Assembly: GCA_937883755.1 (NCBI GenBank)
Contig: CAKZYA010000059.1
Coordinates: forward strand, 1 to 64,000
Origin: an uncultured Flammeovirgaceae bacterium
Lineage (GTDB): Bacteria > Bacteroidota > Bacteroidia > Cytophagales > Cyclobacteriaceae
Direction: 5' to 3'
Length of the DNA: 64,000 nucleotides
This document shows positions 14,602 to 54,908 of this stretch, piece by piece. A program made the translations under genes and the position numbers. The first letter of the stretch is position 1. Every line of letters begins with the position of its first letter. The notes under the pieces are model-generated. The model saw only the letters and a list, made by a program, of their open reading frames with translations. It searched no databases and was not told the origin of the DNA.

Positions 14602-14651
14602 AAATACATGATGATGTACCATACGTGACTAACCCTTTGTTCTACCGATTT

Positions 14652-18853: not shown

Positions 18854-18858
18854 CGGAT

Positions 18859-27933: not shown

Positions 27934-29094
27934 TTACCAATTGGTAAATGAGCCATCGCGGCGTTTAAGGTGTGGCACTTCCTGAAGGATAAATGTTTGT
28001 TCTTTCGCTAATTCCTCGTTGAATTCTACCCCCAAACCGGGTAGATCTGGTACTGGATATCGGGCATTCTCTAATTTGGGCTGAACCGGATAGAATTTGG
28101 GCGAATTGTTCCCACTTTGGCCTACTGGGGTATTTATCTCTTCCAGCCAACTCATATTCGGGCTAGCTGCGGCCACGTGCAGAGAAGCCGCCGTACAGAT
28201 TGGTCCTAGAGGATTGTGAGGCATCAGATCGATGTAGTGAGATTCGGCCAAAGACGCTACTTTCATAGATTCGGTGATGCCACCTACATTGCAGACATCT
28301 ACCCGAGCAAACTGGGTAATGCCTCTCTCCAAGTAGGGCAAAAACTGCCACTTGCTGGCAAACTCTTCGCCAATCGCAAACGGTACCGATACCATTTTGC
28401 GGAGACTTTCGTAGGCTTCCGGGGTTTCGTCTCGAATGGGTTCTTCAATAAAATCCAGTGTGCCGACTGGCATCCGGTGTAAAAAGGATACAGTTTCGGT
28501 CGGGGTCAGCCGATGGTGATAATCGATACCGATGGTAGGCCGAAAACCTACTTCTTTCCGCAACTGAACAATCCACTCGGCAATCAGGGCGATGGACTCC
28601 CGAGGCTCAAAAACTTTGGGTTCGTCCGATACTTCGTATTCGGCGGGGGCGAGCCTCAGTACATTCCACCCCTCCTTTAACAGAGTACGAGCCTTCTCAA
28701 TTAGTTCTTCCTGCGAGGTAAATAACAGAGAGGCAAAACACTCCACATAGTCGCGCTGCTTACCCCCCAATAGCTCATAAACCGGTACATCCAGTGCTTT
28801 TCCCTTGATGTCGTACAGTGCAATATCAATAGCAGAAATAGCCGAAGTAAGCACCCGCCCTCCTTCAAAATACTGACTGCGGTACATCTCCTGCCAGATA
28901 GCCCCGATTCGTCGTGGGTCTTTGCCGAATAAGAAACCTTTGTAGTGTTCAATAGCTCCCATCACCGCTAGCTCCCGCCCCGATAAGCCCGAAGCCCCCC
29001 AGCCGTAGATATCCACATCAGTTTCTACCTTGACGATAAGATGGTTTCGGTAACCAATACTGGTCGGAAAGCATTTAATATTGGTAATTTTCAT
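27934..29094 (-). CDS. Enolase-superfamily sugar-acid dehydratase (galactonate dehydratase-like)
   Basis: 386 residues of the mandelate racemase/muconate lactonizing group. The metal ligands are Asp191 in IDYHHR, Glu217 in IEEP and Glu243 in GEE, with the catalytic His293 in MPHNPLGP. The latter motif and IDxHxR match D-galactonate dehydratase (DgoD). The second-strand base motif is VLRLAP, not the KxK or FKLN of classic members, so the substrate may differ. It is the last gene of the 33-kb minus-strand run and is preceded by an MFS sugar-acid carrier. If it makes 2-keto-3-deoxy-galactonate, the kinase/aldolase pair beyond the IS element would complete the route. Confidence 0.82.
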   Translation of the reverse strand: MKITNIKCFPTSIGYRNHLIVKVETDVDIYGWGASGLSGRELAVMGAIEHYKGFLFGKDPRRIGAIWQEMYRSQYFEGGRVLTSAISAIDIALYDIKGKALDVPVYELLGGKQRDYVECFASLLFTSQEELIEKARTLLKEGWNVLRLAPAEYEVSDEPKVFEPRESIALIAEWIVQLRKEVGFRPTIGIDYHHRLTPTETVSFLHRMPVGTLDFIEEPIRDETPEAYESLRKMVSVPFAIGEEFASKWQFLPYLERGITQFARVDVCNVGGITESMKVASLAESHYIDLMPHNPLGPICTAASLHVAAASPNMSWLEEINTPVGQSGNNSPKFYPVQPKLENARYPVPDLPGLGVEFNEELAKEQTFILQEVPHLKRRDGSFTNW

Positions 29095-29128: not shown

Positions 29129-30418
29129 TCATGAAGTAATTCGTTGGACCTTTCCTACTAAAAATACGTAGCTAAAGAAGCCCAGTAAAGCTAGCATGCC
29201 AATAAAAAACAATGCCGGTCGGAAATCTCCTCCTTCCACCAGCACCCCGATAACTAGCGGAATAACTACCGCTGAAAGTCCTCCCATAAGGTTAAATACG
29301 CCGCCAATCAGGCCAATTAGACGCTGAGGGGCAATAGAGGAAACAAATACCCAGGTGATTGATGCCAGTCCATTGCCGAAGAAGGCTACTGCCAGACAAG
29401 CTATAATGAGCCAATTACTCTCAGCATAGTTCGCTCCAATAATAGAAACTGACAGTAACATACCAAATAAGACCGGAGCTTTACGGGCTACTTCGGCTGA
29501 GAAACCTCGTTTCAGCAAGAAATCAGAGAGAAAGCCGGATAACAACACCCCAACGAAAGCTGCCAAAAACGGAATAGAGGCCAGAAACCCGGATTCCAGA
29601 AAATCCATTCCCCGGTATTTTACCAAATAGGTAGGAAACCAGGTGAGGAAAAAGATCACCAACGAACCGATACAAAATTGCCCAATGTAAATTCCCCACA
29701 GCTTTCGGTAGCGAAAAGCCTGCCCAAAGTCGGCCCAATTGATTTTCTTACGATCAGACTCTCTCGTTCCCATGCCAATCAGTCCTCCTCCTTCAGAAAT
29801 ATAGTCTAGCTCCGACTGGCTCACAGTTTGATGCCGGGCGGGATCGCGGTAGAACATGTACCATACTACTGCCCATAGCAGCCCTACAATACCCGATACA
29901 ATAAACAAGCCCCGCCAGCCGAGGGCATCCTGAATAGCTACCAGCGTGGGAGTTAGAAAGGCCAACCCGATATACTGCCCCGAGGTATAAACGGCAATTG
30001 CCGAAGCCCGCTCTTTCTCGGGAAACCAACTGGTGACAATACGATTATTAGCCGGATAACTAGGTGCTTCAAAAACCCCCATACTTGCCCGAATCCCAAT
30101 GAACGTCAACAGTGAACTAGCAAACCCCTGAATCAATGTAGCTATCGACCAGAGAGCCATCATGAAGGTGTAAAGAATGCGAGGCCTTACCTTGTCAACC
30201 AGCATCCCCCCCGGAATCTGCAAGCCGGCGTAAGTCCAGGCAAAAGCCGAGAAAATCAGTCCCATTTGCACACTGCTCAGTGCTAAATCCTCGCTAATGG
30301 CAAAAGCAGCAATAGAAATATTACTCCGATCCATGTAGTTAATTACCACACTGAAAAACACCATAAATAGCATACGGTAGCGGGTTCCAGAAGCAGGCTT
30401 AGCTATGGTTGATTTCAT
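29129..30418 (-). CDS. MFS transporter, anion:cation symporter type (hexuronate/sugar acid)
   Basis: 429 residues with 12 predicted membrane helices. The N-terminal motif NYMDRSNISIAAFAISEDL is characteristic of the ACS family (ExuT, DgoT, GudP), which carries hexuronates, galactonate and glucarate with protons. The next loop has GGMLVDKVRPR, and the mid-loop and second half are typical of MFS. It lies 34 bp upstream of the dehydratase-like gene in the transcript, supporting a sugar-acid substrate. Which acid cannot be told from sequence. Confidence 0.88.
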   Translation of the reverse strand: MKSTIAKPASGTRYRMLFMVFFSVVINYMDRSNISIAAFAISEDLALSSVQMGLIFSAFAWTYAGLQIPGGMLVDKVRPRILYTFMMALWSIATLIQGFASSLLTFIGIRASMGVFEAPSYPANNRIVTSWFPEKERASAIAVYTSGQYIGLAFLTPTLVAIQDALGWRGLFIVSGIVGLLWAVVWYMFYRDPARHQTVSQSELDYISEGGGLIGMGTRESDRKKINWADFGQAFRYRKLWGIYIGQFCIGSLVIFFLTWFPTYLVKYRGMDFLESGFLASIPFLAAFVGVLLSGFLSDFLLKRGFSAEVARKAPVLFGMLLSVSIIGANYAESNWLIIACLAVAFFGNGLASITWVFVSSIAPQRLIGLIGGVFNLMGGLSAVVIPLVIGVLVEGGDFRPALFFIGMLALLGFFSYVFLVGKVQRITS

Positions 30419-30449: not shown

Positions 30450-31592
30450 TCATAGCCTTAACTCTTCATCTAACGAAGAATTATGCTCTCCCAGAATAGG
30501 CGCTCCCCGATTGGAAAATAGCTGTTCATCATTTAGCGTTATCGGACAACGAGTGGTTTGGTAAGACAAACCACTGCTCATCGTTACTGATTGAATCATA
30601 TTGAGCACTTCAAAGCCCTCGTGAGCCAGTAAGCGCTCCCAATCAAGTACGTCAGCGCACCAGATATCGGCTGGTTCCAGTACCTCCAGCCAAGCTTGGG
30701 TTGTTCGACGGGTAAGATGCTTCGCTAGAACAGCTTTTATTTCATCTCGCTGGGTGAACCAACTTTCTTTCTCTTGATACTTCAACAAATCAGGGCAGTC
30801 TAATAACTCTCCTAAAACTGGTATCTGTCCCATTGCCAGGGCGAGGTATCCATTGCTAGTTTGGTAAATTCCATAGGGTGCGCCCAAATAGGCATGAGCG
30901 TTGTTGTGAGCTGTTCGCTTTACCGGTTCCCCTCTATCCTGTAGGTAGGTTGTAATAGCTTCAAACTGGAGATCAAGGATAGACTCCATCATGTTTACTT
31001 CGATCAATGCTCCCTCCCCATTCATTCCTTTACGCACTAAGGCAGCCAAAATGCCCTGAGCCAGATGCGCTCCAGTAAAAATATCCGCAATGGCTAACCC
31101 CATCGGGGTCGACCCATTGTCCTCATTTCCACTCAGCCACGTTAGTCCCGAAAGAGACTGCACCAGCAAATCCTGACCAGGCTTTTTTGCCCAAGGCCCT
31201 TCGGCACCGTAACCGGAAATATGCCCGTAAACGATACCGGGCTTTCGCTGCTTGATGGTTTCGTAGGCTATTCCTAAACGCTCGGCTACTCCGGGCCGGA
31301 AATTGTGCATAACTACATCCGCCTGATCGATGAGCTTCAGCACTTTTGATCGGTCGTTTTCATCTTTCAGGTTGGCCGCGTAGCTTTCCTTATTGCGGTT
31401 GATGGCATAGAAGAAGGAAGACTCATCGTTGATGCGAACGCTAGACATATACAGATCGCGTCCAATATCACCGTGTTCGGGATGCTCAACTTTGATTACT
31501 CTCGCTCCCAAATCAGCCAACCGCAAGCTTGCTGAAGGGCCGGATAGAAACTGGCTTAGGTCTACGACCGTAATACCGTGCAATGGTTTCAT
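30450..31592 (-). CDS. Class III CoA-transferase (CaiB/BaiF family), paralogue 2
   Basis: 380 residues. The opening [29 protein letters not shown] and the [15 protein letters not shown] segment are CaiB/BaiF hallmarks. The predicted catalytic Asp141 lies in [13 protein letters not shown]. The start ATG overlaps the stop of the neighbouring paralogue at 31589 by 4 bp (ATGA), so the two are translationally coupled. They share motifs such as MHNFRPGV and the whole plan, so they arose by duplication. They could act as a heterodimer or on two related acids. CoA activation of a sugar-derived acid would be unusual for a galactan locus; the substrate is not known. Confidence 0.85.
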
Positions 31593-32746
31593 CGGGGCAG
31601 GTCGGTTAGGTTAAATTCTGCTTCAATACGCTGGTTATCCTCCCCTACCTTAGGGGCAGATTTGCGGGAGAATATCCGTTCGCCATCCACCCGGATTGGG
31701 CAGCGGGTAGTATGAATGACAGTTCCATCAGAAGTCTCAACCTGCTGTTCCATCTGTAAAACCTGGTACCCGGGGTGGTTCATCAGCTCAGCGTAATTCA
31801 GCACCTCAGCACACCATACGCCCGCCGATTCCAGCGTGTTTAGCCACTCCTGGATGGGTTTCTGCCTAAAGTGACTTGCGAGCCAGTTCATAATCTCGTC
31901 CCGCTGCTCAAACCAGGCATCAGGCTCTCGGTATGCTTCCGGTAGTTCTATTTGCATAAAATCAGTCAGCTTGGGCAATGGAACCATCGCAATGGCAATG
32001 TGACCATCTTGGGTAGGATAAACACCGTAAGGGGCACCCAAATAAGCGTGAGCGTTTCCAGATTCGGCCCGTTGGGGCGGCTTCTTTTCGCTGTTTAGGT
32101 AGGCAGTCAGCACTTCAAACTGAAAATCCAGGGCGGATTCTAGTAGGCTTACCGATACCTTGGCTCCTTCCCCGGTCTTTCCTCTTTGCACCAAAGTGGC
32201 TAGTATGCCCTGAGCCAGATGCGCTCCAGTGAGCATATCTACCACGGCCATACCCATCGGGGTGGGCGGATCGTTTTTGTTGCCAGTAAGGTAGGTTAAA
32301 CCCGACACCGACTGCACTAGTAAATCCTGTCCGGGTTTGGTAGCCCAAGGGGCTTGGCTGCCGTAACCACTCACCTCTCCGTACACAATCCGAGGATTAA
32401 TTTTTTGGACGGAAGCGTAGTCCAGACCAATTTTTTCCATCACCCCTGGACGAAAATTATGGGTCATAACATCGGCCTGAGCGATCAGCTTCTTTACTTT
32501 TGCTAGATCTTCTTCGTCCTTCAAATTAGCTGCGTAGGACTCTTTATTTCGGTTGATGGTATGAAATACCAGACTGTCATTACCTACGAAAAGATTCTTA
32601 ATCACAATTTGCCGTCCACCTTCACCACTGCTGGGGCGTTCAATCTTGATAACCCTGGCTCCCAAATCGGCCATTTTCAGTCCGGCGGATGGGCCAGCCA
32701 TGAACTGAGAAAATTCTAATACGGTGATGCCCTCTAGTAGCTTCAT
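31589..32746 (-). CDS. Class III CoA-transferase (CaiB/BaiF family), paralogue 1
   Basis: 385 residues with the same layout as the gene at 30450: [19 protein letters not shown] near the N-terminus, [25 protein letters not shown], and catalytic Asp141 in [13 protein letters not shown]. It lies 9 bp after the substrate-binding-like gene at 32756. The two paralogues keep all motif residues I can see, so neither looks inactive. Members of this family move CoA between carboxylic acids through an enzyme-anhydride intermediate. The partner acid in this cluster is unknown. Confidence 0.85.
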
Positions 32747-32755
32747 CTGTTCAGT

Positions 32756-33913
32756 CTAGTGGGTTTGCTCCAGCGATTCCCGATAAAGCTGATTTAATTC
32801 TTGCAATAACAACAGACTATCTCCACCCCGCATCATAAACTCTCGGATAGGTGCCCCCGCCCGATCCTGAAAATACATGTGTCCCGCGTAGCGGGGACGC
32901 AAAAACGCTCGGTCTAAGGTGGGTAACGTACTGCGGAAGTAGTTGGATAACCTAGCGTTGTTCGTTTCATCCAACCAGGCTTCCCGATGACCCGGCTGGC
33001 CGCCAAAATTCACGTAAAGTGTCTTTTGGATATTCGGGTGGGCTACGTAGGCAGCGTAACGAGCAGCCCATTCCGTATGTTGGCAATGTGTAGAAATAGC
33101 CAGTCCGGTGCCGCCCAGAGTAGTGATTAGGTTCTGCCCATCTATACTAACCGTATCGTGAAATATGAGCAGTTTACGGGCATAGCCCTCCTGAGCGTAG
33201 TTGGCATAACCGTAGGCGAAGGGAGAATAAACGTAGTCATCACCACTCGTCATTGCTTCGTAAACCTGAATCGGATTCCAGTTGAAGCACTCCTGATTGA
33301 TGTTCTTACCCAATTCGCGTAGCATCCCTAAGGCCTGACTACCTATCTTTTCCGAAACTACGTAATCAGAAGTGGTACACACGTCTTCACCCAGCGTGGA
33401 ACACAGCATATAAAAGCTCATCAACGTGTCTTGAGGGATTCCGGGAATGGCTACTATACCGCTTTCTGCCAGTGCCAATAGATTATCCCAGATTCGGGGT
33501 AGTTCATAACCATAATTACGCAGCAGATCAAGCCGGCTAGCAGCCACCGGAGTCGCCGCATCAATAGCCAACGCCCACTGCTGATTATTGTAGCTGTAAC
33601 TTTCGTGCGATTTGCCAACTGAGTTAGCAGCTAAATTCTCAAGCAGTCCTTCGGGCATTAGATCATTCAGGGGTTGAATTACTCCGGTTCGAGCCGCGAA
33701 ACCGGTCCAGGGATGGTCAATCACCAGCAGATCGTACCGCTGAGCTAACTGATCAATCGGCTCGTCGGCAAATGCCTGAAGCGATCGCTTGCTCCACTCA
33801 ATCTTCACCTCCGGATGCAATTCGTGAAACCGTTGAGCCGTAGCCACCATTGAGGTAAAGCCTCGGGTATGGTTCCAGGTAATTCCTTTAAGAGTGATGG
33901 ACGGTTGGTTCAT
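32756..33913 (-). CDS. Family 1 solute-binding-like protein without a signal peptide
   Basis: 385 residues resembling extracellular solute-binding proteins of ABC sugar importers (SBP family 1): an N-terminal strand-helix VKIEWSKRSLQAFADEPIDQLA, YDLLVIDHPWTGFAA, and hinge-like GTGLAISTH. The N-terminus is MNQPSITLKGITWNHTRG, with no signal peptide or lipobox and no hydrophobic helix, so it is predicted cytosolic. No later in-frame start would create a signal peptide either. There is no ABC permease or ATPase near it. It lies between the aldehyde dehydrogenase and the CoA-transferases. It may sense or hold an intermediate in the cytosol; that is inference. Confidence 0.75.
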   Translation of the reverse strand: MNQPSITLKGITWNHTRGFTSMVATAQRFHELHPEVKIEWSKRSLQAFADEPIDQLAQRYDLLVIDHPWTGFAARTGVIQPLNDLMPEGLLENLAANSVGKSHESYSYNNQQWALAIDAATPVAASRLDLLRNYGYELPRIWDNLLALAESGIVAIPGIPQDTLMSFYMLCSTLGEDVCTTSDYVVSEKIGSQALGMLRELGKNINQECFNWNPIQVYEAMTSGDDYVYSPFAYGYANYAQEGYARKLLIFHDTVSIDGQNLITTLGGTGLAISTHCQHTEWAARYAAYVAHPNIQKTLYVNFGGQPGHREAWLDETNNARLSNYFRSTLPTLDRAFLRPRYAGHMYFQDRAGAPIREFMMRGGDSLLLLQELNQLYRESLEQTH

Positions 33914-33960
33914 GGTTGGGTATCTACACTATTCTGAGAACACATTTGGACACTGGCAGT

Positions 33961-34004
33961 CATTGGTCATTGGTCATTGGTCATTGGTCATTGGTCATTG
34001 GTCA
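33961..34004. repeat. Tandem 7-bp repeat, six copies of CATTGGT
   Basis: Six perfect head-to-tail copies of CATTGGT between the aldehyde dehydrogenase and the solute-binding-like gene. It is the most regular member of a group of degenerate heptad repeats in intergenic gaps of this minus-strand run. Not a CRISPR: the unit has no spacers. Confidence 0.9.
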
Positions 34005-34074
34005 AAATACAGATTACACCTTGTCAAGAAGAAAAAACTCATAAATACCTCAACAAGTGACAAAGGACTAAGAG

Positions 34075-35541
34075 CTATCTTCCGTAATCCAGATAGATGG
34101 TTCGCTTTTGCAGGTACCCTTCTATACCGTAGACCCCATCTTCTCCGCCTAGGCCACTATGCTTGTGGCCGGAGTGATAACCTTGAATATAGCCCACAAT
34201 ACCCCGGTTAATGAAGATCGTACCTACCTGGAGGTTATCGATGGCGTGCATAAAACGAGTATAATCCTGAGTGTATAGATAAGCAGAAAGTCCTTCCTCT
34301 CGGGCATTGGTTAGTGCCAGAGCCTCCTCGTAGCCGGATATTCGCATAATGGGCAGCACCGGACCAAATATCTCCTGTTCGATAGCAGCGTGATCGTTTT
34401 GAGCGTTGAGCAACACGGTTGGTTCGTACCAGTTGCCACGCTCGAAGTATTTACCTTCAGGCCGTTTGCCTCCGGTGGCCAACTCGGCTCCCTGCGCTAG
34501 GCTCTGCTGCACAATATTGTTTACCCGAGCTAAATCGGCAGCACTTACTCCGGGCCCCATATCTACCTCCTCCATCGGGTTGCCTACTTTCAACTTCGCC
34601 ACTTGCTTCAGAACTTTATCGGTAAATTCATCGGCTATTTTCTTGTCTACCATGATCATTTCACTACAGATACATACCTGCCCGCAATTGGCGTAGCGAG
34701 CGATTACTGCGGCTTCAGCAGCTTTGTCAATATCCGCATCATCTAGTACGATGAAGGGTGCTTTTCCGCCTAACTCCAGCGAGAGAGCGGTGATATTGGG
34801 AGCCGCCGACTTGTAAATCTCCTGTCCCGCCCGGATGCTACCTGTCACGCTTACCAGTTTTGTAATTGGGCTTTCTACCAGTATGCGGCCCACGTCGGCT
34901 CCGGTTCCTACTACCAGATTCAGTACTCCGGCCGGAAATCCGGCTTCGTCGGCTAATCGGCAAAACTCAGATGCGGTAACCGGCGTCAGTTCGTGGGGCT
35001 TGATAATCATACTGTTCCCAGTTACCAAGGCCGGGCCAACTTTACGTCCGATCAACGCTAATGGGTAGTTATAAGCACACAAACCGATAGTAACTCCGTA
35101 AGGCACTTTATGGATGGATAACTGCTCGTACGGGTTATCCGAGGGGAAAATACTTCCTTCTAATCGGCGAGCGGCTTCGGCCGAATAGCTCAAGTAACGC
35201 ATGGTATCGTCAACTTCTCCATAAGCCTCGGCTAACGTTTTGCCCTGCTCCATCACCAACAAACGGGCGAAATAGTCCCGCTCTCTCTTAAGAAGATCGA
35301 CGATCTTCATTATATAGTTTCCCCGTTGGATTGCCGGTAACGCTTGCCAGGCTAACTGAGCCTTTTCGGAGGTTTCCAGGGCGTACTTTACCTGATCAGG
35401 GGTGCTTATGGCTACGCGGGAAAATACCTCTTCGTTAGCAGGGTTTTGTACTTCTATCCATTCACCGGAGGGGTCAACCCACTCGCCGTTGATGTAGCAG
35501 CGATAATCTTTCACTGCTTCTTTAGCCTTTACATTTTCCAT
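34075..35541 (-). CDS. Aldehyde dehydrogenase (AldA type), paralogue of the anhydrogalactose enzyme
   Basis: 488 residues of the NAD(P)-dependent ALDH superfamily. Catalytic Cys290 is in NCGQVC, and Glu256 lies in LELGGK. The C-terminal block [20 protein letters not shown]...[13 protein letters not shown] closely parallels the enzyme at 52590 ([21 protein letters not shown]...), so the two appear to be diverged copies of one sugar-aldehyde dehydrogenase group. Here it sits with the CoA-transferases and enoyl-CoA hydratase. It should make the acid that enters that set. Natural aldehyde unknown. Confidence 0.85.
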
Positions 35542-35616
35542 ATCTTTTAGGTGTTAAGGTGTTATAGTGTTTAGGTGTACTGGTCACTGGTCACTATTTC
35601 TAACTTCCTATCTCAA

Positions 35617-35644
35617 AACTTTGAACTTTAAACTCTGAACTTAA
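35617..35644. repeat. Degenerate heptad repeat (AACTTTG-type, four units)
   Basis: Four consecutive 7-bp units, AACTTTG, AACTTTA, AACTCTG and AACTTAA, in the gap between the enoyl-CoA hydratase and the aldehyde dehydrogenase. The same gap also has TGGTCACTGGTCACT (35579-35593), another 7-bp period. Units differ from those at 33961, but the period is the same. Confidence 0.6.
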
Positions 35645-35649
35645 ACCTT

Positions 35650-36438
35650 CTATTTTCCTTTAAACTGAGGTGGTCTCTTTTCAGCATAAGCAGCGTACCC
35701 CTCCGCGGCATCTTCTGAGTTGTATAAAGGGTTCCCCAGGCTTTCCTCTAGCTTTAATCCTACACTCAGAGTCATTCCCTCCCCCAGGCAAACGCTGCGC
35801 TTAATAGCTGCAATGGCTAGGGATGGCCCCGATGCCAGAGCCTGAGCATATTTCATAGCTTCTTCCGCAATTGTATCGGCCGGATAAAGTCGATTAACTA
35901 GTCCCAAGCGAAAGGCTTCCGAAGGATGGATGCTTTCTCCGGTAATCATTAGTTCCAGGGCTTTAGCAGCTCCGATCAACCGGAGCAATCGTTGCGTGCC
36001 GCCGTTACCCGGAATAAGCCCCAGTTTTACTTCCGGCAGGCCGAGTAGATAGTTTCCTTCAGCCGCCAGGCGCAAGTCACATGCCATTGCTAACTCTAGT
36101 CCGCCGCCTAGCGTATGCCCACTAAGAACGGCGATATAGATTTTCTTACTACTATTGATACGTTCCGCCACCTGACGAGCTTTGCTTACCAGTACCTGAT
36201 TGGTAGCCGTATCGTTCTTGCCGAACGCCCGAATGTCGGCTCCGGCGCAGAAGAACTTGGGCAGTGCGCTGTTTAGCAGAACAGTTTTCACGTCCTTATC
36301 TTCATTGGCAGCGATCACCCGCTTCTCTAGCTGAGTCATCAGGTCAATATCGTAAGCATTGGCCGGAGAGTGATTTAGCGTAATTATGCCGACTCCCTGC
36401 TGTTTGCTTAATAATACTTTTGTACCGGATTTGCTCAT
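35650..36438 (-). CDS. Enoyl-CoA hydratase/isomerase family protein
   Basis: 262 residues of the crotonase superfamily. The oxyanion-hole segments FFCAGADIRAFG and SGHTLGGGLELAMACD are present, and both catalytic glutamates of true hydratases are kept: Glu in GGLELAMACD and Glu in LPEVKLGLIPGNGGTQ. So a hydratase or retro-aldol type reaction on an acyl-CoA is likely. It lies 33 bp downstream of the cytosolic GH2 enzyme and upstream of the aldehyde dehydrogenase. Together with the two CoA-transferases it gives this sugar locus an acyl-CoA step, but the acyl group is unknown. Confidence 0.88.
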   Translation of the reverse strand: MSKSGTKVLLSKQQGVGIITLNHSPANAYDIDLMTQLEKRVIAANEDKDVKTVLLNSALPKFFCAGADIRAFGKNDTATNQVLVSKARQVAERINSSKKIYIAVLSGHTLGGGLELAMACDLRLAAEGNYLLGLPEVKLGLIPGNGGTQRLLRLIGAAKALELMITGESIHPSEAFRLGLVNRLYPADTIAEEAMKYAQALASGPSLAIAAIKRSVCLGEGMTLSVGLKLEESLGNPLYNSEDAAEGYAAYAEKRPPQFKGK

Positions 36439-36471: not shown

Positions 36472-38910
36472 CTAAAACCCATTCGCTGTAGGCCGTTGCT
36501 CATCCGCTTCGGTTGAACCATCTTCCCCCGACAACCCCCGGAAGTAGCGGAAGTAATTCGCCCAGCCGAATTTATCCTTAATCCGTCGAGCCTCCTCACC
36601 TAGTGCCTTGAGCTTCGCTCGATCCACCGGTTCATCAGCTACTAAAAATGTATATTCATTAGCCGAAAGCTCCTGTCCGTGCTCATTGTTTAATGTTAGT
36701 TTGGCGAAGAACTTATCACCTATTGCCCCAGGAACCTCGCAGCTTACTTCGGCTACCGATGCTGAACTATCTTCCGCAATAGTAGCTACACTAAATTTTT
36801 CCTCGCTTAGCAGTTGCTGATTCTGACCTAGAAATTGCAGATGAGCAGCACAGTGAGTGTAGGTTAAGAAATAATCATTTACTACCCAGATATTTCCTTT
36901 AAAAGTCTCTCCGGGTTGCCACCGGCGGCTGTCGTGCTGCAACGTGATCAGCAAAGGCTGATAAGCTCGCTGCACATAGTCGTAGGAACGCTTGGTTTGT
37001 TGATAGTAGTCTACAATGCCCCACTTCATATCGGGAGCGAAGGTGATATAGTGGCATATGCATACCGCGCTGGTTCGCGGTTTACGGGTGCGGTAGTACT
37101 CCAACGCATACTGGAAGATAGTACCCTGAGTAATCTGAGTGGCTTCCACAAAATCATTTAAGGAGCCGATTGAGACATCACCCAACACTTCAAAATTGAG
37201 GGTTTTAAGCACGTCAAAGTCAGTCCAGTGGTGTCCCCAACTAGGGCCGGGAGGCCAGATTTCTGCTTCGGGAATGAACTTACGAATGCTATCTACATTG
37301 GGACAGGAAGAGATGGCCAGTTCCGGGATTACGGCGTAGTCCAGACTAGGAAAGTACTCTTCCATGGTAAACTCGCCTTCCCCGTAGAACAGGTCATTGG
37401 CGTGAAAGCTTTCGTTCGGTTTGAAACCTAATTTCAACCCCACTTCATCGCTCAAGGGAGAAGAAGGCAGAAAATGCAGGGAGGTATACGGACGGATAGC
37501 CTCACCTAACTCGTTCACAAATTGTAAATTATATTCCGGGTCAGCCGCCGTCATAAACAACTCCTCTGAGCCTTCTAGCAGCACTAAGCTAGGATGATTA
37601 CGCTGCTTTTTTACCAAATGAATGGCTTCATCGAACACAGCCTGTTTAAACTCATCATCTTTAGGAAGGGAGAGACTAGCCAAGGGCACCACATCCTGCC
37701 ATACGGTGATTCCAGCTTCATCACATAACTGATAATAGAGGGGTATCTCGGGGGGATGCCAACCAAAAATTCGCAGATTATTAAGATTGGCTTCCTTCGC
37801 CAGTCGGATTAGTTCACGATACTTGGATGGATGAGCCCGCCCGAAAAAGATGTCCGGTGGGCCGCCCCAGGTGCCGGATCGCATAAAGTGGGGTTGGCCA
37901 TTAATATTTACCGTCCAGGGATTCTCTACCTGCTCTTCACTAAAACCAGGGTTTCGTGTCATTTTCAGCTCCCGAATCCCGAAGCTAGTTTCGGTCTGAT
38001 CCTGAAAATTCTCCTTATCGTCCCGCACCACTACTTCAGCCTGATACAAATGCTGTTCGCCCCGATCCCAAGGCCACCACAATTGAGCATCGGGCACAGA
38101 TATCGAAAGACTAAGTTGAGTTTCACCGGCTTCGACTGAATGGCTAAGCTGAGCCGTATATTCTTCCGACTCAAAATTTGTTCCGGTAACCGTCACATCC
38201 ACCGTCACATCTCGAGCGGTTTCGCCGGGATTTTCCAGTTCAACCTGAACGTCAAGATCAGCCGATCCGTCAGGATTGATGGTAGATTGAACGTAAGTGT
38301 CTTCGATAGTAATTTCTCCCGTAGCCTCTAGTCGGATGGGACGCCAGATGCCGGTAGGAGGTAGGCTTACCCAGTAATCGCCGTGCCAAGCGGGCTTACG
38401 ACCAGCTACCTGACTATAGCGGCGCGGGGCCGGATGCAGACGAATCATCAGCACATTGGTACCGAAGCGGAGACTATCGAAGCGAACCAGCTCGGTCACA
38501 TCAAACTTAAATGCGGAAAACATGCCTTCGTGCGTGCCTAGTAGTTGGCCATTAAACCACACATCGCAGCCGAAATCTACTCCCTCAAATACTAGCCAGA
38601 TTCGCTTTCCTTCCATGCCGGACGGGACATCGAACTGCCGCTTGTACCACCACTCCCGCTCGGCTACCCATTTAGCTTTCAGGCTATTGCGTCCGAAGTG
38701 AGGATCATCGATCCAGCCTGCCCGCCACAGATCGGTATATACGTCGCCGGGTACCGTAGCAAATGACCAGTTGAAGGCATCCCCCGTGATATCCGGAGGC
38801 AATTCATTAAACCCTAATTCTATCCCCCGGCCGGGGGATATGCCTTCAAACTGCCACTGGTGGCCGCTTAAATCAAATATTATTTTTTCTGATTGTTTAG
38901 ACTTGTTCAT
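36472..38910 (-). CDS. GH2 glycoside hydrolase, mannosidase-like, cytosolic
   Basis: 812 residues with no signal peptide. The layout is a GH2 sugar-binding jelly roll (about 10-200), an immunoglobulin-like domain (about 200-310) and a TIM barrel (about 315-630). The second half of the barrel shows EGSEELF, the acid/base region (Glu449/Glu450), and VIPELAISSCPN, with the predicted nucleophile at Glu530. In canonical beta-mannosidases the residue before the acid/base Glu is Asn (GNNE); here it is Glu. A similar change occurs in the paralogue at 40589. It should hydrolyse a glycoside imported into the cytosol, most likely beta-linked mannose, glucosamine or a uronic-acid relative; the exact sugar is not clear. 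Confidence 0.82.
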   Translation of the reverse strand: MNKSKQSEKIIFDLSGHQWQFEGISPGRGIELGFNELPPDITGDAFNWSFATVPGDVYTDLWRAGWIDDPHFGRNSLKAKWVAEREWWYKRQFDVPSGMEGKRIWLVFEGVDFGCDVWFNGQLLGTHEGMFSAFKFDVTELVRFDSLRFGTNVLMIRLHPAPRRYSQVAGRKPAWHGDYWVSLPPTGIWRPIRLEATGEITIEDTYVQSTINPDGSADLDVQVELENPGETARDVTVDVTVTGTNFESEEYTAQLSHSVEAGETQLSLSISVPDAQLWWPWDRGEQHLYQAEVVVRDDKENFQDQTETSFGIRELKMTRNPGFSEEQVENPWTVNINGQPHFMRSGTWGGPPDIFFGRAHPSKYRELIRLAKEANLNNLRIFGWHPPEIPLYYQLCDEAGITVWQDVVPLASLSLPKDDEFKQAVFDEAIHLVKKQRNHPSLVLLEGSEELFMTAADPEYNLQFVNELGEAIRPYTSLHFLPSSPLSDEVGLKLGFKPNESFHANDLFYGEGEFTMEEYFPSLDYAVIPELAISSCPNVDSIRKFIPEAEIWPPGPSWGHHWTDFDVLKTLNFEVLGDVSIGSLNDFVEATQITQGTIFQYALEYYRTRKPRTSAVCICHYITFAPDMKWGIVDYYQQTKRSYDYVQRAYQPLLITLQHDSRRWQPGETFKGNIWVVNDYFLTYTHCAAHLQFLGQNQQLLSEEKFSVATIAEDSSASVAEVSCEVPGAIGDKFFAKLTLNNEHGQELSANEYTFLVADEPVDRAKLKALGEEARRIKDKFGWANYFRYFRGLSGEDGSTEADEQRPTANGF

Positions 38911-38933: not shown

Positions 38934-40535
38934 CTAAATAGGTGTGCTGGTTTTGGTAGTAGTTAATTCAGCATCTCTTTTTACCAGCAAGGCCTCCAGC
39001 TCCTCCAAGGTTTTTCCTTTGGTTTCCGGTACTTTAGTGACGATAAATAATAGCCCTAATACGGCGAATAAAGCATAGATTAGAAAGGTGGTACCGCTTC
39101 CCAAGCGAGCTAGTTCCCAAGGGAAGATTAGTTGAATACCAAAGGCTATGGATAAGTTAACCAGCCCGACAAAAGAGATAGCCAACCCCCGCACCCGATT
39201 GGGGAACAATTCCGAGAATAGTACCCACATTACCGGCCCGATAGAACCTGCATAGGCAGCCACAAAACCCAGAATACCCAATAGAATCACCAGTGTATTT
39301 AGTGATATAGCTCCGTTTACCAAGGTAGTAGTAAACTGCTCTACGGTTTTTTCTCCAAGTGTATTGGTAAGGGCAAGTTTAAACGCTCCTTCACTCTCAA
39401 ACTGTTGCCCTTTGAGCGTTTCTAAAGCAGTTCGGTCAACCTCGGTGGGATAATTGGCCAATGCCTCATCGGTAATGGTGTAGGTAGCTGAATAGAAGCC
39501 AAAGGTCAGGACAAATAAGCAGAGAGCCATTCCGGCCATCCCGACAATTAGCAACGGTTTTCTTCCTAGCCGGTCAATGGTCGCCATAGCCAGCACGGTA
39601 GCCACTAGGTTCGTTAACCCCACCAAAATAGCCTGCACGAAGGAGCTATCGGTGCCGATACCGGTCTGCTCGAAGATCATTGGAGCGTAGAATAGCACCG
39701 AGTTAATTCCAGTAACCTGCTGAAAAATGGCTACGACAAGTCCCACAGTCAATACGAACCGTAGTTCCGGGGCGAAGAGATCATTGAGCGATACTGGTTT
39801 GCGTTTTCTGCTTTCTGCCAAGCTGTCCTTCATTTCTTTTACCTGCTCGGCAATTCCTTCTTCCGAACCAAAACGTCTCATTACATTCATAGCCTCTTCT
39901 TCTTGATTCTTCATCATCAGCCAGCGAGGGCTCCTGGGAACGAAGAATAGGCCCAGGAAGTAGAATATGGCCGGTAGCGTTTCCAGCCCTAGCATCCACC
40001 GCCAGTTCCATTTTCCAAACCCCAGCACTTGCGTCCATTCAGCATCGGATTGCCCAAACTGAAGAATAAGATAGTTGGTGAAAAAAGCGATCGAAATACC
40101 AATAACGATGTTCAGTTGGTTGAAAGAAACCAATAACCCGCGGTAGCGAGGAGGAGCCACCTCGGCAATATAAACCGGAGCGATAATCAGAGCCACTCCT
40201 ACCGCGAGTCCACCAATCAAACGGGCAACGATCAGCCAGAAGAAGGTCGGCGCCAGGGCTGAACCTAAAGCAGAAACCGTGAATAAAACGGCGGCATAAC
40301 TCAACAGGCGTCGACGGCCCAAATTATCACTGAGTGGCCCGGCTATCAGCGTTCCCAGAGCCGCGGTAAGTGTAATGGAACTTACGGCCCACCCCAACTC
40401 AATTTTGCTGAGATTGAACTCCGGCTCAATAAATTTGACTACCCCGGATATTACCGAAGCATCGAACCCCAGCAGGAAACCACCCAAAGCAACGATAATG
40501 GTTATCAGTACGATCTCTTGTTTTTGTCGAGGCAT
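38934..40535 (-). CDS. Sugar porter family MFS transporter
   Basis: 533 residues with 12 predicted helices. It has the sugar-porter marks GxxSDxxGRRRLL (LSDNLGRRRLL) after helix 2, DRLGRKPLL after helix 8, and PETKGKTLEELE at the C-terminal end. Residues 360-430 form a longer loop than usual between helices 9 and 10, predicted soluble. It lies between the two paralogous GH2 genes, one exported and one cytosolic, so it probably imports the product of the exported enzyme for further cleavage inside. Confidence 0.88.
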   Translation of the reverse strand: MPRQKQEIVLITIIVALGGFLLGFDASVISGVVKFIEPEFNLSKIELGWAVSSITLTAALGTLIAGPLSDNLGRRRLLSYAAVLFTVSALGSALAPTFFWLIVARLIGGLAVGVALIIAPVYIAEVAPPRYRGLLVSFNQLNIVIGISIAFFTNYLILQFGQSDAEWTQVLGFGKWNWRWMLGLETLPAIFYFLGLFFVPRSPRWLMMKNQEEEAMNVMRRFGSEEGIAEQVKEMKDSLAESRKRKPVSLNDLFAPELRFVLTVGLVVAIFQQVTGINSVLFYAPMIFEQTGIGTDSSFVQAILVGLTNLVATVLAMATIDRLGRKPLLIVGMAGMALCLFVLTFGFYSATYTITDEALANYPTEVDRTALETLKGQQFESEGAFKLALTNTLGEKTVEQFTTTLVNGAISLNTLVILLGILGFVAAYAGSIGPVMWVLFSELFPNRVRGLAISFVGLVNLSIAFGIQLIFPWELARLGSGTTFLIYALFAVLGLLFIVTKVPETKGKTLEELEALLVKRDAELTTTKTSTPI

Positions 40536-40588: not shown

Positions 40589-43096
40589 TCATTGCTCAAA
40601 CCCTTTGGCTCGGGGTATTTCGGTTTCACTGTCCCATCCTTGTTCGCCATTCAGTTCGGGGAAGAAACGGTAGTAATTTCCGTAGGTGTATTTGCCGATG
40701 GTCTGATTGACTTCCTTGCCCATCTCCTTAAACTGAACTGAAGCTTGCTGTTGGTCACCGATAAGCAGCATATATTCGTTGGTAGATAATTGCTCTCCGT
40801 CCTTATCCACCAATTCCAGTTCAACCGTAAAGCTCTGATCTACCTTTGCTAGTACATCCTGATTGACATCCGTCAGTTTCACTGAGCTATTTTCGGTAAT
40901 CTCGTTTACAGCAATTGTTTCCTCAGTAAGGGTACTGCCATCATCACCTACTATCCGAAGTTTTACCTCCCCTCCTTCATATTTTTTATAAAAATCATTA
41001 ATGATCCAGATTTCGCCCGCAAACGGTTCGTCGTTTTTCCACCGCCGCTTATCAAATTGCAGGCTGACTAATAAAGGCTGGTACGCCCGTTTCACATAGT
41101 TGTAGGAGCGCTTAGGCTGTTGGTAATTGTCGACGATACCCCACTTCATATCCGGCCAGTAAGTGATGAAGTGGCAGAGGCTAATGCCACTGTTCCGAGG
41201 CTTTTGCCGACGAAAATGCTCTACCGATAGCTGGAAGATAATTCCCTGAGCATCCTGGGTGGCGTTTACAAACTCCTCTAGCGAGCTGGTACGTTCATCG
41301 CCAAAAGCATCAAAGTTTTGAATTCGCAATCGGTCGATGTCAGCCCAGTGGTGGCCCCAACTCAGGCCTGGAGGCCACATTTCTTCTTCGGGGATAAATT
41401 TTTTCAGGCTTTCTACCGAAGGAACCGAGGTAATCGCCAGTTCGGGTACAATGGGGAAATCCAATGCGCTAAACCAATCTTCCATCAGGGCGTGACCCAT
41501 ACCGTAAAAGTACATAAGAGCGTGAACTGCTTCTTTGGGTTTGTAGCCTACGCTGAGCGCAGTCTCCGAAGTAAGCGGTGAATCCGGTACGTAGGGTAAA
41601 TCAACGTACTGCTGCAACGAATCACCTAAGCGTAGTAGAAAATTGTTCGTGAACTCAGGGTTCGATGCTCGTAGAAACATCTCTTCCCCACCCTCAATTA
41701 ATATCAGGCAAGGATGATTGCGTCGCTCTTTGATTACCGCCACGCCTTCGGCAATGACCCCATCCAAAAACTCCTGATCGCGAGGCATATTGCCCGTACC
41801 TAGGGGAATCACGTCCTGCCAGACGGTGAGGCCAGCTTCGTTGCACATCTGGTAAAATTCCGGGATTTCGGGCGAATGCCAACCAAATATCCGGATGTTG
41901 TTCATGTTAGCCTCTTTCGCCAGCCGAATCAGTTCCTGATACTCTTCCACCGAGGTGCGGCCAACAAAGATATCGGGAGGGCCGCCCCAACATGCAGAAC
42001 GTATGAAATGATTCTTCCCGTTGAGCTTTACCGTTCGGGGGAAGCTTACCTCGTCTTTGGTGAACCCCGGATTCCACTCCATTTCAATCTCTCGGATACC
42101 GAAGGTAGTCTCGGTCTTATCCTGGAAGGCATCGCCTTCGTGCACGGTAACCTGGGCTTTGTATAAGTTGGGATCGCCTAAATCCCAGGGCCACCACAGC
42201 TTAGGCTGCTCTACGGGTACTGTTTTCTTAATTGTGTGCAAGCCAGGAGGCAGGGTTTCGGTGATCTGTACCGCAATGGGTTCAGATGTGAAGTTATGTC
42301 CTTGTAAAGACGTGCTTATCGTTACTTCGCGAGCTGTGCTGCCGGTATTTTCCAGGGTTATTTCCAGATTCACATTCGCTGCGTTATTCTCTTCAAGATC
42401 GGAATGCACGTACAGATCGTCGATACGTACCGCACTGGTGGCTTCAATTCTGATCGGTCGCCAGATGCCGAAGGGCACCAAATCGCGCCAGTAGTCGCTA
42501 AACCAGGGAGTTTTGCTACCTACCACCTGATTGTTGACCTGCGGTGGGGGATCTAATTTGACAACCAGGATATTCTGACTCTCCAGTCGGTTTTGGGCAG
42601 CGCGGATTTCTTTAGTAATATCAAAAGAGAACGGGGAGAAAGCTCCCTCGTGGCTGCCGAGGCGTACGCCATTGAGCCATACCTCACAGCTATAGTCCAC
42701 TCCATCAAAGTGCAGCCGGATTGCTTTATCGGTCAGATCATCGGTTACGTTGAACTGCGTTACGTACCACCATTCATCGTACATCACCCACTGAGCTTTA
42801 GCACTGTTCCGGCCAAAGTAGGGATCATCAATCACTCCGGCTTTCCACAGATCAGTATACACATCGCCCGGTACACTGGCGGGATTCCAAACCAGGGTCT
42901 CGATATCTTCCGGTGGTAGTTGCGGGATTCCTGCCTTAACGCCTTGCCCTGGATACATTTTCTTCATTTTCCAGTGATGCCCGCTCAGGTCCCGAATCAA
43001 CTGGCTACTTTCCCGGTAGGCTTCGGTAGGTTGAGGCTGCGCCTGAATATCGCAGATAAGTAGGGTGATAAATGTGATTAATAAAGGATATTTCAT
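40589..43096 (-). CDS. GH2 glycoside hydrolase, mannosidase-like, exported
   Basis: 835 residues, beginning with a signal peptide (about 1-20) that the paralogue at 36472 lacks. The domain plan is the same: sugar-binding domain (about 30-220), immunoglobulin-like domain (about 220-330) and TIM barrel (about 335-650). The acid/base region reads EGGEEMF (Glu471/Glu472) and the nucleophile is predicted at Glu552 in VPELAITSVPS. The two paralogues share many segments, for example SVPGDVYTDLWKAGVIDDPYFGRNS. The exported form would act in the periplasm or at the surface, feeding the sugar porter at 38934. Confidence 0.82.
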   Translation of the reverse strand: MKYPLLITFITLLICDIQAQPQPTEAYRESSQLIRDLSGHHWKMKKMYPGQGVKAGIPQLPPEDIETLVWNPASVPGDVYTDLWKAGVIDDPYFGRNSAKAQWVMYDEWWYVTQFNVTDDLTDKAIRLHFDGVDYSCEVWLNGVRLGSHEGAFSPFSFDITKEIRAAQNRLESQNILVVKLDPPPQVNNQVVGSKTPWFSDYWRDLVPFGIWRPIRIEATSAVRIDDLYVHSDLEENNAANVNLEITLENTGSTAREVTISTSLQGHNFTSEPIAVQITETLPPGLHTIKKTVPVEQPKLWWPWDLGDPNLYKAQVTVHEGDAFQDKTETTFGIREIEMEWNPGFTKDEVSFPRTVKLNGKNHFIRSACWGGPPDIFVGRTSVEEYQELIRLAKEANMNNIRIFGWHSPEIPEFYQMCNEAGLTVWQDVIPLGTGNMPRDQEFLDGVIAEGVAVIKERRNHPCLILIEGGEEMFLRASNPEFTNNFLLRLGDSLQQYVDLPYVPDSPLTSETALSVGYKPKEAVHALMYFYGMGHALMEDWFSALDFPIVPELAITSVPSVESLKKFIPEEEMWPPGLSWGHHWADIDRLRIQNFDAFGDERTSSLEEFVNATQDAQGIIFQLSVEHFRRQKPRNSGISLCHFITYWPDMKWGIVDNYQQPKRSYNYVKRAYQPLLVSLQFDKRRWKNDEPFAGEIWIINDFYKKYEGGEVKLRIVGDDGSTLTEETIAVNEITENSSVKLTDVNQDVLAKVDQSFTVELELVDKDGEQLSTNEYMLLIGDQQQASVQFKEMGKEVNQTIGKYTYGNYYRFFPELNGEQGWDSETEIPRAKGFEQ

Positions 43097-51478: not shown

Positions 51479-52588
51479 CTAAACTTTTATTGCGTAACCC
51501 ACCTCGTATTCCATCAATTTCTCCCAATCGAAGGTTACCCCAACGCCAGGTTCATCGGGAGCTACCGCTCGGTGATTTTCAACCACCAGTGGGCGAGTGG
51601 TATATTCATCTATCGGGAAGCTGTGTACTTCTAGCCAGCCGGCATTAGATTGAGCCGATACCAGACTGACGTGTAGCTCCTGCATACCGTGAGAACAGAC
51701 CGGGATACCGTACTTTCGCGACATCTCGGCCACTTTGAGCCAGCCGCTCACTCCACCGCAGTTGGAGGCATCGGGTTGAATAAAGGATAGCTTCGCTTGC
51801 TCAAAAGCGTAACCAAATTCGTAGAGGGTATGCAGATTCTCTCCCATCGCCAGTGGCATACCGGTGGCTTCAGCAATTTGGGCAAAACCCAAGTAGTTAT
51901 CAGGAATAATCGGCTCCTCGAACCATTTTAAGTTATAAGGTTCAAACGCCTGAGCGGCCTTAATGGCCTGTTCCACATTCATGGAATAGTTGGCATCTAC
52001 CATAAAGGGGCGGTCGTTGCCTAGTAGCTCCCGCACGGCTTTCACCCGTTCTAGGTCTTCTTGCAACTTCGGACGGCCAATTTTGATCTTAACTGCGTTA
52101 AATCCTAAGTCCAGGTAACCTTGTACATTCTTGAGTAATTTTTCCAAAGGAAATTGCAGATCAATTCCTCCACAGTAGGCATTACAGGTATTATTTACTG
52201 CTCCGGCAACTTGCCATAGCGGCTTTTCGGCCTTTTTACAGCGAATATCCCACAGGGCAATATCAACGGCGGAGATGGCAAAAGAGGTAATCCCGCCTCT
52301 ACCCACGTAGTGGATGTGCCACTCCATAAAATCAAAAATGCTTTCCACGTCTTCGCCGTCTTGCCCAATTAAAGCGGGAGCAATATCGTGCTCAACTACC
52401 GCTTTGATGGCGTGACCACCTTTGCCCCCAGTGTAGGTGTAGCCAGTACCCTCGCTGCCATCCGCTAGTGTGACCGTAACAGTGACCAGTTCAAAGTGGG
52501 TATGGTCGCCGTGCTTAGCATCGCTTAGCACCTCTGGCAGTGGAACGTTAAATAAACGGGGCTGGACTCTAACAATTGAACTTCCCAT
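51479..52588 (-). CDS. 3,6-anhydro-L-galactonate cycloisomerase-like enzyme (enolase superfamily)
   Basis: 369 residues. The pattern matches what I know of Vibrio EJY3 anhydrogalactonate cycloisomerase: [63 protein letters not shown] and [16 protein letters not shown]. Enolase-type residues are KIKIG (Lys167/Lys169), metal ligands Asp198, Glu224, Glu250, and His300. It should convert 3,6-anhydrogalactonate into 2-keto-3-deoxy-galactonate. Its start is 1 bp from the stop codon of the aldehyde dehydrogenase gene that supplies the substrate. Confidence 0.88.
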
Positions 52589-54140: not shown

Positions 54141-54908
54141 TTATCTTCCCATCCAGCCTCCGTCGACGAGCATGGTTGTGCCGTGCATATAGTTGGCAGC
54201 AGGTGAGCAAAGGAATACAATCGGACCGGCAAAATCTTCCGGTTCACCCCAACGTCCGGCTGGAATTCGGGATAGAATAGATTCAGATCGATCAGGATCA
54301 TTACGCAGGGCTTCGGTATTATCGGTGCTGATGTAGCCGGGGGCAATGGCGTTGACGTTCACTCCTTTACTGGCCCACTCGTTCGCGAAGGCCATCGTCA
54401 TCTGCCCGATAGCCCCTTTACTGGCGGCGTAGCCAGGAACGGTAATGCCACCCTGAAACGTCAGTAAGGAAGCAGTAAACACGATCTTCCCGCTACCGCG
54501 CTCCACCATATCTTTCCCAAATTCGCGGGTCAGAATAAACTGGGCGTTCTGATTGACTTCAATCACCTTGTCCCACATCTCATCGGGATGTTCCGCCGCT
54601 GGTTTCCGTAGAATAGTTCCGGCATTATTCACCAGAATATCAATCTGGTCGTAATCCGATTTTACTTGTTCAATGAACTGATACAGTGCCTGGCGGTCGG
54701 AAAAATCGCATTGGTAGGCTTTAAATGACGCGCCTTTTTCAGTGACTTCTTTTTCAACATCGCTGCCTGACAATTCTAGTGAGGCAGATACCCCGATAAT
54801 CTCGGCTCCAGCCTCGGCTAAGGCTACTGCCATCGCTTTTCCGATCCCTCGTTTGCATCCGGTGACTAAGGCTGTTTTTCCGTTTAGTTTGAATTGGTCT
54901 AATATCAT
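54141..54908 (-). CDS. SDR-family oxidoreductase, KduD-like
   Basis: 255 residues. The cofactor motif VTGCKRGIGKA (TGxxxGIG), NNAG at about 94-97, and the catalytic set Ser147, Tyr160 and Lys164 (YAASK) are complete. The overall pattern is that of 2-dehydro-3-deoxy-D-gluconate 5-dehydrogenase (KduD). In the anhydrogalactose route of Pseudoalteromonas this activity runs in reverse, reducing 2,5-diketo-3-deoxy acid to 2-keto-3-deoxy-gluconate. It is preceded by the Zn-type ADH (15 bp), which would produce that diketo acid. Confidence 0.8.
   Translation of the reverse strand: MILDQFKLNGKTALVTGCKRGIGKAMAVALAEAGAEIIGVSASLELSGSDVEKEVTEKGASFKAYQCDFSDRQALYQFIEQVKSDYDQIDILVNNAGTILRKPAAEHPDEMWDKVIEVNQNAQFILTREFGKDMVERGSGKIVFTASLLTFQGGITVPGYAASKGAIGQMTMAFANEWASKGVNVNAIAPGYISTDNTEALRNDPDRSESILSRIPAGRWGEPEDFAGPIVFLCSPAANYMHGTTMLVDGGWMGR

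Follow-up and report, generated by a model that had tools for sequence, protein, structure and literature searches.

Introduction

The canonical route for 3,6-anhydro-L-galactose (AHG) runs through a GH117 glycosidase, an AHG dehydrogenase (AHGD) and a cycloisomerase and, to our knowledge, makes no use of coenzyme A (CoA). Elsewhere, the oxepin-CoA hydrolases of the phenylacetate pathway are hydratase-family enzymes that hydrolyze enol ethers of CoA thioesters, and DddD, a dimethylsulfoniopropionate (DMSP) CoA-transferase/lyase, carries two class III domains in one protein. A methyl-sugar route is known in agar and porphyran, namely the P450 demethylation of 6-O-methyl-galactose (PMC10033563 and PMC8360166). 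Here, a set of five genes was analyzed in a stretch of 64,000 nucleotides (the window: positions 1 to 64,000 of contig CAKZYA010000059.1, assembly GCA_937883755.1, from an uncultured Flammeovirgaceae bacterium). The set encodes two class III CoA-transferases (CoAT1 and CoAT2), a member of the enoyl-CoA hydratase family (ECH), an aldehyde dehydrogenase (ALDH1) and a solute-binding-fold protein (S1).

The set is read, with a probability of about 0.5, as a CoA-thioester side-branch of red-algal galactan catabolism, which would serve an L-galacto-configured acid refractory to the ordinary enolase-superfamily enzymes, 2-O-methyl-AHG being the favoured candidate. The gene set is real and conserved, and apparently undescribed so far: in the portions seen of the open-access literature, a coverage that leaves subscription journals mostly outside, no description was found of a CoA-transferase with a solute-binding protein (SBP) in agar or fucose catabolism.

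Results

The S1/CoA-transferase core and its two contexts

Families were assigned by a Pfam profile scan of the window proteins, by the NCBIfam cut-offs and, for the best relatives, by sequence similarity to PDB entries. All five open reading frames (ORFs) of the set lie on the minus strand, co-directional as had been described, and the 4-bp overlap of the tandem CoA-transferase genes was confirmed from the coordinates:

35650..36438, minus strand: ECH, enoyl-CoA hydratase family, the hydratase of the type A module defined below (PF00378, ECH_1, E 1.1e-54)
34075..35541, minus strand: ALDH1, relative of AHG dehydrogenase and of AldA with altered conserved residues (Aldedh E 5.3e-146; best PDB relative 3k2w, E 2.3e-139; 6j75, E 2.6e-134)
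32756..33913, minus strand: S1, solute-binding-fold protein without signal peptide (PF01547, SBP_bac_1, E 2.8e-6, 28 bits against a cut-off of 26)
31589..32746, minus strand: CoAT1, class III CoA-transferase (PF02515, CoA_transf_3, E 2.7e-102)
30450..31592, minus strand: CoAT2, class III CoA-transferase (PF02515, E 7e-95)

A scan of genome contigs for S1 yielded 479 relatives, from which the best 80 loci were used. The full set consisted of the window and 97 loci fetched by S1 similarity, 98 in total. Some loci were fetched twice via different collections; with identical S1 copies removed, 86 unique loci are left. Among the best 80 of 479, the closest S1 (88% identity) belongs to another uncultured Flammeovirgaceae bacterium (L045). 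Among genomes of the taxonomic order to which the window belongs, 15 of 241 have an S1 match, including the window's own and one marginal case. In 97 of the 98 loci (86 unique S1), the nearest CoA-transferase gene is found downstream of S1, on the same strand and at a distance of -38 to +547 bp; L058 is the exception to this linkage, and the pair of L059 is separated by a short called ORF. The lack of conservation that the original prediction had named as evidence against itself was thus not encountered over the 98 loci.

The genes around this pair fall into two types. Among the 86 unique loci, 46 are of type A, with an ECH gene, 33 are of type B, two score as both and five as neither. Type A loci carry the ALDH in 42 cases and the GH2b cluster in 33, and type B loci carry a second SBP in all 33, a Gfo/Idh/MocA oxidoreductase in 30 and a MaoC-type hydratase in view in 23. 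An IclR-family regulator was found in 44 of the 86 loci. Judged from these gene neighbourhoods, the unit common across phyla is the S1/CoA-transferase core and not the five-gene set, ECH and ALDH being one of its two contexts.

A quick tree of S1, thinned by 10 of the 86 unique loci (nine Hymenobacter and L123) and with support below 80 on 28 of its 81 inner branches, requires the type to change four times or more, so that related S1 cores serve both the ECH+ALDH and the Gfo+MaoC contexts. The idea that S1 divides only once according to its hydratase was therefore rejected, although the type labels are clustered on the tree.

Both hydratase glutamates, noted earlier as kept in the window, are invariant (E115 and E136 in 51 of 51 ECH cluster members), in line with a two-glutamate hydratase. 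The five other ECH matches in the window's genome are at most 35% identical. Of 34 MaoC proteins, all keep the Asp and 32 the His that comes after it, residues that we take to be catalytic.

The CoA-transferase pair

CoAT1 and CoAT2 belong to class III, with PF02515 scores of 343.1 and 318.7 bits against a gathering threshold of 23.3. They share 53% identity, and nothing else in the 7.6-Mb genome assembly matches PF02515. None of the named equivalogs (succinate-glutarate, mesaconate and oxalate CoA-transferase) was reached at the NCBIfam cut-offs, the best scores being 219 and 200.4 bits against 750. The original prediction had named Asp141 as catalytic in both proteins. This residue, the Asp of a 'GQD' motif, is indeed invariant, as is Asp170 (both Asp in 169 of 169 single-domain homologues), but the assignment needs a correction: in the alignment with solved class III enzymes, Asp170 is the residue that falls in their 'aD(L/I)' column. 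The Asp of that column is presumably the class III nucleophile (Asp169 of formyl-CoA transferase).

In eight unique loci, all of Hymenobacter, CoAT1 and CoAT2 are fused into one ORF of about 800 aa. Hymenobacter-type head-to-tail ORFs of this kind (L039-L042, L112-L117, L120 and L122) lie mostly beside genes for a GH78-type rhamnosidase and a LacZ-type GH2.

S1 is probably a cytosolic protein

As a profile, S1 matches trehalose/maltose- and sulfoquinovosyl-glycerol-binding proteins, and its mean column identity is 64% (38 rows). The called start lies 4-12 residues ahead of a conserved (G)xTWxH motif in 79 of 98 rows, further ahead in 18, and the pattern is missing in one. Export signals were assessed by simple hydropathy, not by a trained predictor, as the most hydrophobic 12-residue window within the first 40 residues. 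The values were a median of 0.53 and a maximum of 1.79 for S1 (98 rows), and -0.17 to 1.2 for nine alphaproteobacterial S proteins, against 1.92-2.44 for six transporter SBP controls. By this simple measure, no hydrophobic leader was seen in the 98 S1 and nine alphaproteobacterial rows, and it was present in the six controls. Additionally, no ABC permease or ATPase gene was found beside S1 among the window genes scanned (19554-61082). A role for S1 as a transporter part was rejected on these two grounds, and the protein probably stays inside the cell. The annotation of several S1 copies as 'extracellular solute-binding protein' is probably misleading. The view of the solute-binding-like protein in the original prediction is corrected in this respect: it has no export signal and is a near-constant neighbour of the CoA-transferases. 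This near-fixed neighbourhood argues for a functional and possibly also a physical partnership.

Another solute-binding-fold protein that lacks a signal is S2, of about 413 aa and with 43 members in its cluster. It has only about 16% identity to S1 and was found at L029, L034-L043, L046, L062, L063, L065-L067 and other type B loci; its N-terminal hydropathy has a median of 0.38 and a maximum of 1.16.

Plasmid and alphaproteobacterial relatives

S1 relatives were detected on 145 plasmid records, 90 of them from Sinorhizobium. In eight of ten annotated plasmid loci from outside Bacteroidota that were inspected (L125-L128, L131, L132, L134 and L136) the CoA-transferase gene is directly upstream of the S gene, an order reversed relative to the Bacteroidota loci, and in the other two, from Streptomyces (L133) and Jannaschia (L135), it lies a few kilobases away. 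The plasmid locus of Persicobacter (L129), a member of Bacteroidota, has the type B order, and the S/CoA-transferase pair was also seen in an unannotated stretch of S. meliloti 1021 (L130).

The best identities of the Roseibium proteins to those of the fetched loci (MaoC 70%, CoA-transferase 59%, Gfo 47% and S 42%) indicate homologous modules. Jannaschia holds a type A-like set (ALDH 62%, CoA-transferase 57%, S 38% and ECH 36%). Several alphaproteobacterial loci also contain an ABC system that is served by a different SBP, and in L134 such a system directly follows ECH. An L-rhamnose mutarotase is annotated in L125, L126, L127, L131 and L136, and an L-fuconate dehydratase in L127, L131 and L136. 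Such contexts suggest L-fucose or L-galactose-type acids, and the L-galacto arrangement common to AHG, L-galactose and L-fucose would let one S1/CoA-transferase core serve all of them.

An agar locus with its own AHG route

The placement of the set inside a sugar locus was borne out, and in many genomes the set is conserved beside glycosidases. By the sequence similarity of its genes, the window represents a galactan locus of the agar type that includes the canonical AHG route (GH117, AHGD-like ALDH and cycloisomerase), and the CoA set should therefore serve another or an extra purpose. The surrounding genes are the following:

36472..38910, minus strand: GH2b, GH2 of the beta-mannosidase branch, adjoining the module (PDB 5n6u, E 5.1e-65)
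38934..40535, minus strand: sugar porter of the major facilitator superfamily (MFS; PF00083, E 6.4e-111)
40589..43096, minus strand: GH2a, paralogue of GH2b (PDB 5n6u, E 1.3e-67; EGxEE motif)
29129..30418, minus strand: MFS transporter, galactonate-transporter-like (TIGR00893, 387.7 bits, below the cut-off of 395)
27934..29094, minus strand: enolase-superfamily sugar-acid dehydratase, galactonate-dehydratase-like (PRK14017, 269.8 bits, below the cut-off of 311)
51479..52588, minus strand: 3,6-anhydro-L-galactonate cycloisomerase, context (PDB 5xd7, E 1.2e-182)
52590..54044, minus strand: ALDH2, AHG dehydrogenase-like, context, adjoining the cycloisomerase gene (PDB 6j75, E 1.2e-227)
57343..58542, minus strand: GH117 3,6-anhydro-alpha-L-galactosidase, context (PDB 4ak5, E 5e-147; 3p2n, E 2.5e-145)
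54141..54908, minus strand: short-chain dehydrogenase/reductase (SDR), context, common to some type B modules (80-81% identity to its equivalent in type B loci of the Flammeovirga type)
54924..55943, minus strand: zinc alcohol dehydrogenase, context, common to some type B modules (56% identity to its counterpart in Flammeovirga-type type B loci)

Entry 6j75 is titled aldehyde dehydrogenase A and is presumably an AHG dehydrogenase. The window also holds two sulfatases, a TRAP transporter and additional GH2/GH43-type hydrolases.

Some further genes were observed on the plus strand. A 2-keto-3-deoxy-galactonate kinase and a KDPG-type aldolase (24772-26356), divergent from the operon, resemble a De Ley-Doudoroff-like D-galactonate branch, and an IS1-type transposase gene (27112-27675) separates this aldolase gene from the galactonate-dehydratase-like gene at the operon end. 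A tripartite RND efflux set (OEP, HlyD-type and AcrB-type) followed by an ion-channel-domain protein (12247-19524) lies upstream of a glutamate symporter gene, and a TPR protein with a weak C-terminal match to sigma-70 region 4 (61516-63174) may be a regulator and lies where the agar locus ends.

The co-occurrence of the set with the AHG route was examined in 34 genomes from type A loci (L057 and L083 not included; L058 scores as both types), with thresholds of E 1e-100 or better for GH117 and E 1e-124 or better for cycloisomerase relatives. GH117 was found in 32 of the 34, compared with 10 of 395 sampled Bacteroidota genomes; the two misses were Hirschia (G644, no match) and Labilibaculum (G628, only 7.8e-51). 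A cycloisomerase relative was present in all 34. Type A genomes being rich in GH117 and all bearing a cycloisomerase relative, the set goes with agar use and does not replace the AHG route; a replacement was rejected. Of 14 type B genomes (L105 scores as both types), seven likewise combined GH117 with a cycloisomerase relative.

ALDH1 and the best AHGD-like match were located in 32 type A genomes by a hand count. They lie on the same contig within 80 kb in 18, where the ALDH1 match falls within the S1 locus range, and on different contigs in 12. In G640 they are about 122 kb apart, and G630 has no AHGD-like match beside ALDH1. In the phylum sample of 395 genomes, S1 was present in 19, GH117 in 10 and both in four, so that GH117 does not depend on the module.

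Substrate clues in ALDH1 and GH2

ALDH1 has a mean identity of 46% to AHGD-like enzymes and of 40% to E. coli AldA. The column of AldA Glu443 is Gly in 47 of 47 ALDH1 proteins and Glu in AldA and in 33 of 33 AHGD-like enzymes, two cluster members that resemble AHGD more closely being counted with the latter group. More broadly, Glu446, Gln447, His448 and Thr286 of the AHGD-like enzymes (33, 32, 33 and 33 of 33) are replaced in ALDH1 by Gly, Tyr, Ile and Ile (47, 47, 45 and 47 of 47), and AldA Asn286, next to Cys285, is Thr in AHGD-like enzymes and Ile in ALDH1 (47/47). ALDH1 thus lacks the residues conserved in AHGD-like enzymes. Glu443 of AldA reportedly contacts the alpha-hydroxyl (Di Costanzo et al. 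2007). The role of this residue in E. coli AldA is not settled by PMC5121451.

The GH2 proteins of the module read E-G-x-E-E where 2vqu/2vjx and 9nfe have G-N-N-E. In GH2a and GH2b, E471-E472 is kept in at least 38 of 39 proteins where 2vqu/2vjx and 9nfe read NNE and 5n6u reads NNC. The Asn preceding the acid/base Glu in GH2 beta-mannosidases was thus not found in either protein, which have Glu instead. In clan GH-A this Asn usually contacts the 2-hydroxyl. By our own reasoning, C1 and C2 of alpha-L-AHG in the 4C1 form look like those of a beta-mannoside. The loss of the Glu in ALDH1, the replaced Asn in GH2 and this chair geometry together point to a sugar altered at C2, for example 2-O-methyl-AHG, a residue reported for Ahnfeltia agar (PMC10741836). 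Such a residue would be unable to tautomerize once the cycloisomerase has acted, and this would account for an additional route. Of 34 genomes (that of the window and 33 from type A loci), 14 have a P450 match at E 1e-20 and 20 have none; on this count, a clear association with P450 demethylases was rejected in either direction.

Discussion

Gene content, conservation, the lack of a signal peptide and the coexistence with the canonical route can be read directly from the sequences, and from these we infer all of the reactions, the substrate and the physical partnership of S1 with the CoA-transferases. ALDH1 would oxidize an aldehyde sugar related to AHG to the sugar acid, and CoAT1/CoAT2 would transfer CoA onto this acid, with S1 as a putative cytosolic subunit or chaperone presenting it. 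ECH may then convert the thioester, either by beta-elimination or by hydrolysis of an enol ether, into a 2-keto-3-deoxy acid that would enter the normal AHG/galactonate route as CoA is handed to the next acid. The order from aldehyde to acid, CoA thioester and hydratase, already present in the original prediction, is the natural reading of the gene set, and the chemistry of the CoA branch is plausible. The suggestion that a decoration such as an acyl or ether group is handled survives in its ether form, as the favoured though unproven 2-O-methyl-AHG, and its acyl form is weighed below as a rival.

Several observations speak against the proposed side-branch. The type labels are clustered on the S1 tree (0 of 500 shuffles as low), and some specialization of S1 by type is possible. 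Seven core-bearing genomes of Hymenobacter, Pedobacter, Mucilaginibacter and Pontibacter have neither GH117 nor a cycloisomerase at the thresholds used, and 15 of the 19 S1 carriers in the phylum sample lack GH117; the substrate of the core therefore cannot be AHG in general. Moreover, six of the ten GH117-positive genomes of that sample lack S1. With mean identities of 46% to AHGD-like enzymes and 40% to AldA, other aldehydes fit ALDH1, and the 2-O-methyl hypothesis draws on the presumed roles of two residues and on the chair-geometry argument. No methanol- or formaldehyde-handling gene was named among the scanned window genes, in a scan that included no search aimed at such genes.

Among the alternatives, a CoA-dependent dehydration of plain L-galactonate-type acids, parallel to the enolase-superfamily enzymes and involving no methyl group, appears rather unlikely. 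Type A would then handle the acid of AHG, and type B and Alphaproteobacteria L-galactonate or L-fuconate, with ECH or MaoC used according to the leaving group (ring ether or hydroxyl). It draws on those type B operons of the Flammeovirga type that are labelled throughout (RhaT-like to MaoC), which have no enolase-superfamily dehydratase and carry the zinc alcohol dehydrogenase and SDR whose window relatives adjoin the AHG enzymes, and on the L-fuconate dehydratase and L-rhamnose mutarotase annotated in three and five alphaproteobacterial loci, respectively. However, this route would be redundant, as a cycloisomerase relative exists in 34 of 34 type A genomes and the L-fuconate dehydratase in those three loci, and ALDH1 lacks the Glu kept by AHGD-like enzymes.

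A route for 6-O-methyl-D-galactose is quite improbable, even though the operon of the window runs on into the galactonate transporter- and dehydratase-like genes, with 2-keto-3-deoxy-galactonate kinase and aldolase genes nearby. Oxidation, dehydration by the galactonate-dehydratase-like enzyme and aldol cleavage would give 3-O-methyl-glyceraldehyde, which ALDH1 would convert to 3-O-methyl-glycerate; after CoA transfer, ECH would remove methanol to yield pyruvate. ALDH1 matches lactaldehyde- and glyceraldehyde-dehydrogenase models, below their cut-offs, and 20 of the 34 genomes have no match to a P450, the enzyme type known to demethylate that sugar (PMC10033563). However, the galactonate genes form clusters with only 3-4 members in the stretches around S1, no such context exists in the type B and alphaproteobacterial modules, and a sugar-binding-fold partner seems superfluous for a three-carbon acid. 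The removal of a non-sugar substituent (an acyl group or aglycone), with S1 as a non-catalytic sensor or carrier, is very unlikely: it is backed by the family chemistry and by an esterase-family gene (cluster f42) near five of 98 loci, but among the type A loci, where many neighbour genes are unannotated, an esterase cluster was not seen repeatedly, and the type B context consists of sugar oxidoreductases.

A bolder form of the proposed side-branch can be offered only as a speculation with the odds clearly against it. Here the SBP, recruited to the cytosol, would have become an obligate part of a class III CoA-transferase. The resulting sugar-acyl-CoA machine would remove the 2-O-methyl ether of methylated agar sugars, releasing methanol, and in other bacteria, where MaoC takes the place of ECH, would do the same to methylated L-fucose or L-galactose.

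If the proposed side-branch is correct, CoA-thioester chemistry would join sugar-acid catabolism, a solute-binding-fold protein would have a cytosolic role beside a CoA-transferase, and a candidate route would exist for methylated agar sugars other than 6-O-methyl-galactose. The reach of S1 relatives extends to 19 of 395 sampled Bacteroidota genomes and 145 plasmid records.

Compared with the described systems, the canonical AHG pathway is itself present in the window and in the tested type A genomes, and ALDH1 is related to its dehydrogenase; the CoA set differs in being additional to that route. S1 shares the sequence family (SBP_bac_1) of sugar SBPs, which we take to be of the CUT1 type, but it lacks a signal peptide, has no ABC permease gene close by in the window and is linked to CoA-transferases. 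The oxepin-CoA hydrolase and its ALDH partner resemble the set in that enzymes of the MaoC and ECH families, with an ALDH, act there on CoA thioesters that contain an enol ether; by contrast, that system belongs to aromatic catabolism, and the window ECH reaches 131.4 bits, below the NF046063 cut-off of 300. The double class III domain of DddD resembles the Hymenobacter fusion, whereas substrate and context differ. Finally, the class III CoA-transferases, including the two-subunit benzylsuccinate CoA-transferase (PDB 9fn0), share with CoAT1 and CoAT2 the fold family, the conserved Asp and the tandem paralogous genes, and the present pair differs from them in its sugar-catabolic context and in having a solute-binding-fold gene as a near-constant neighbour.

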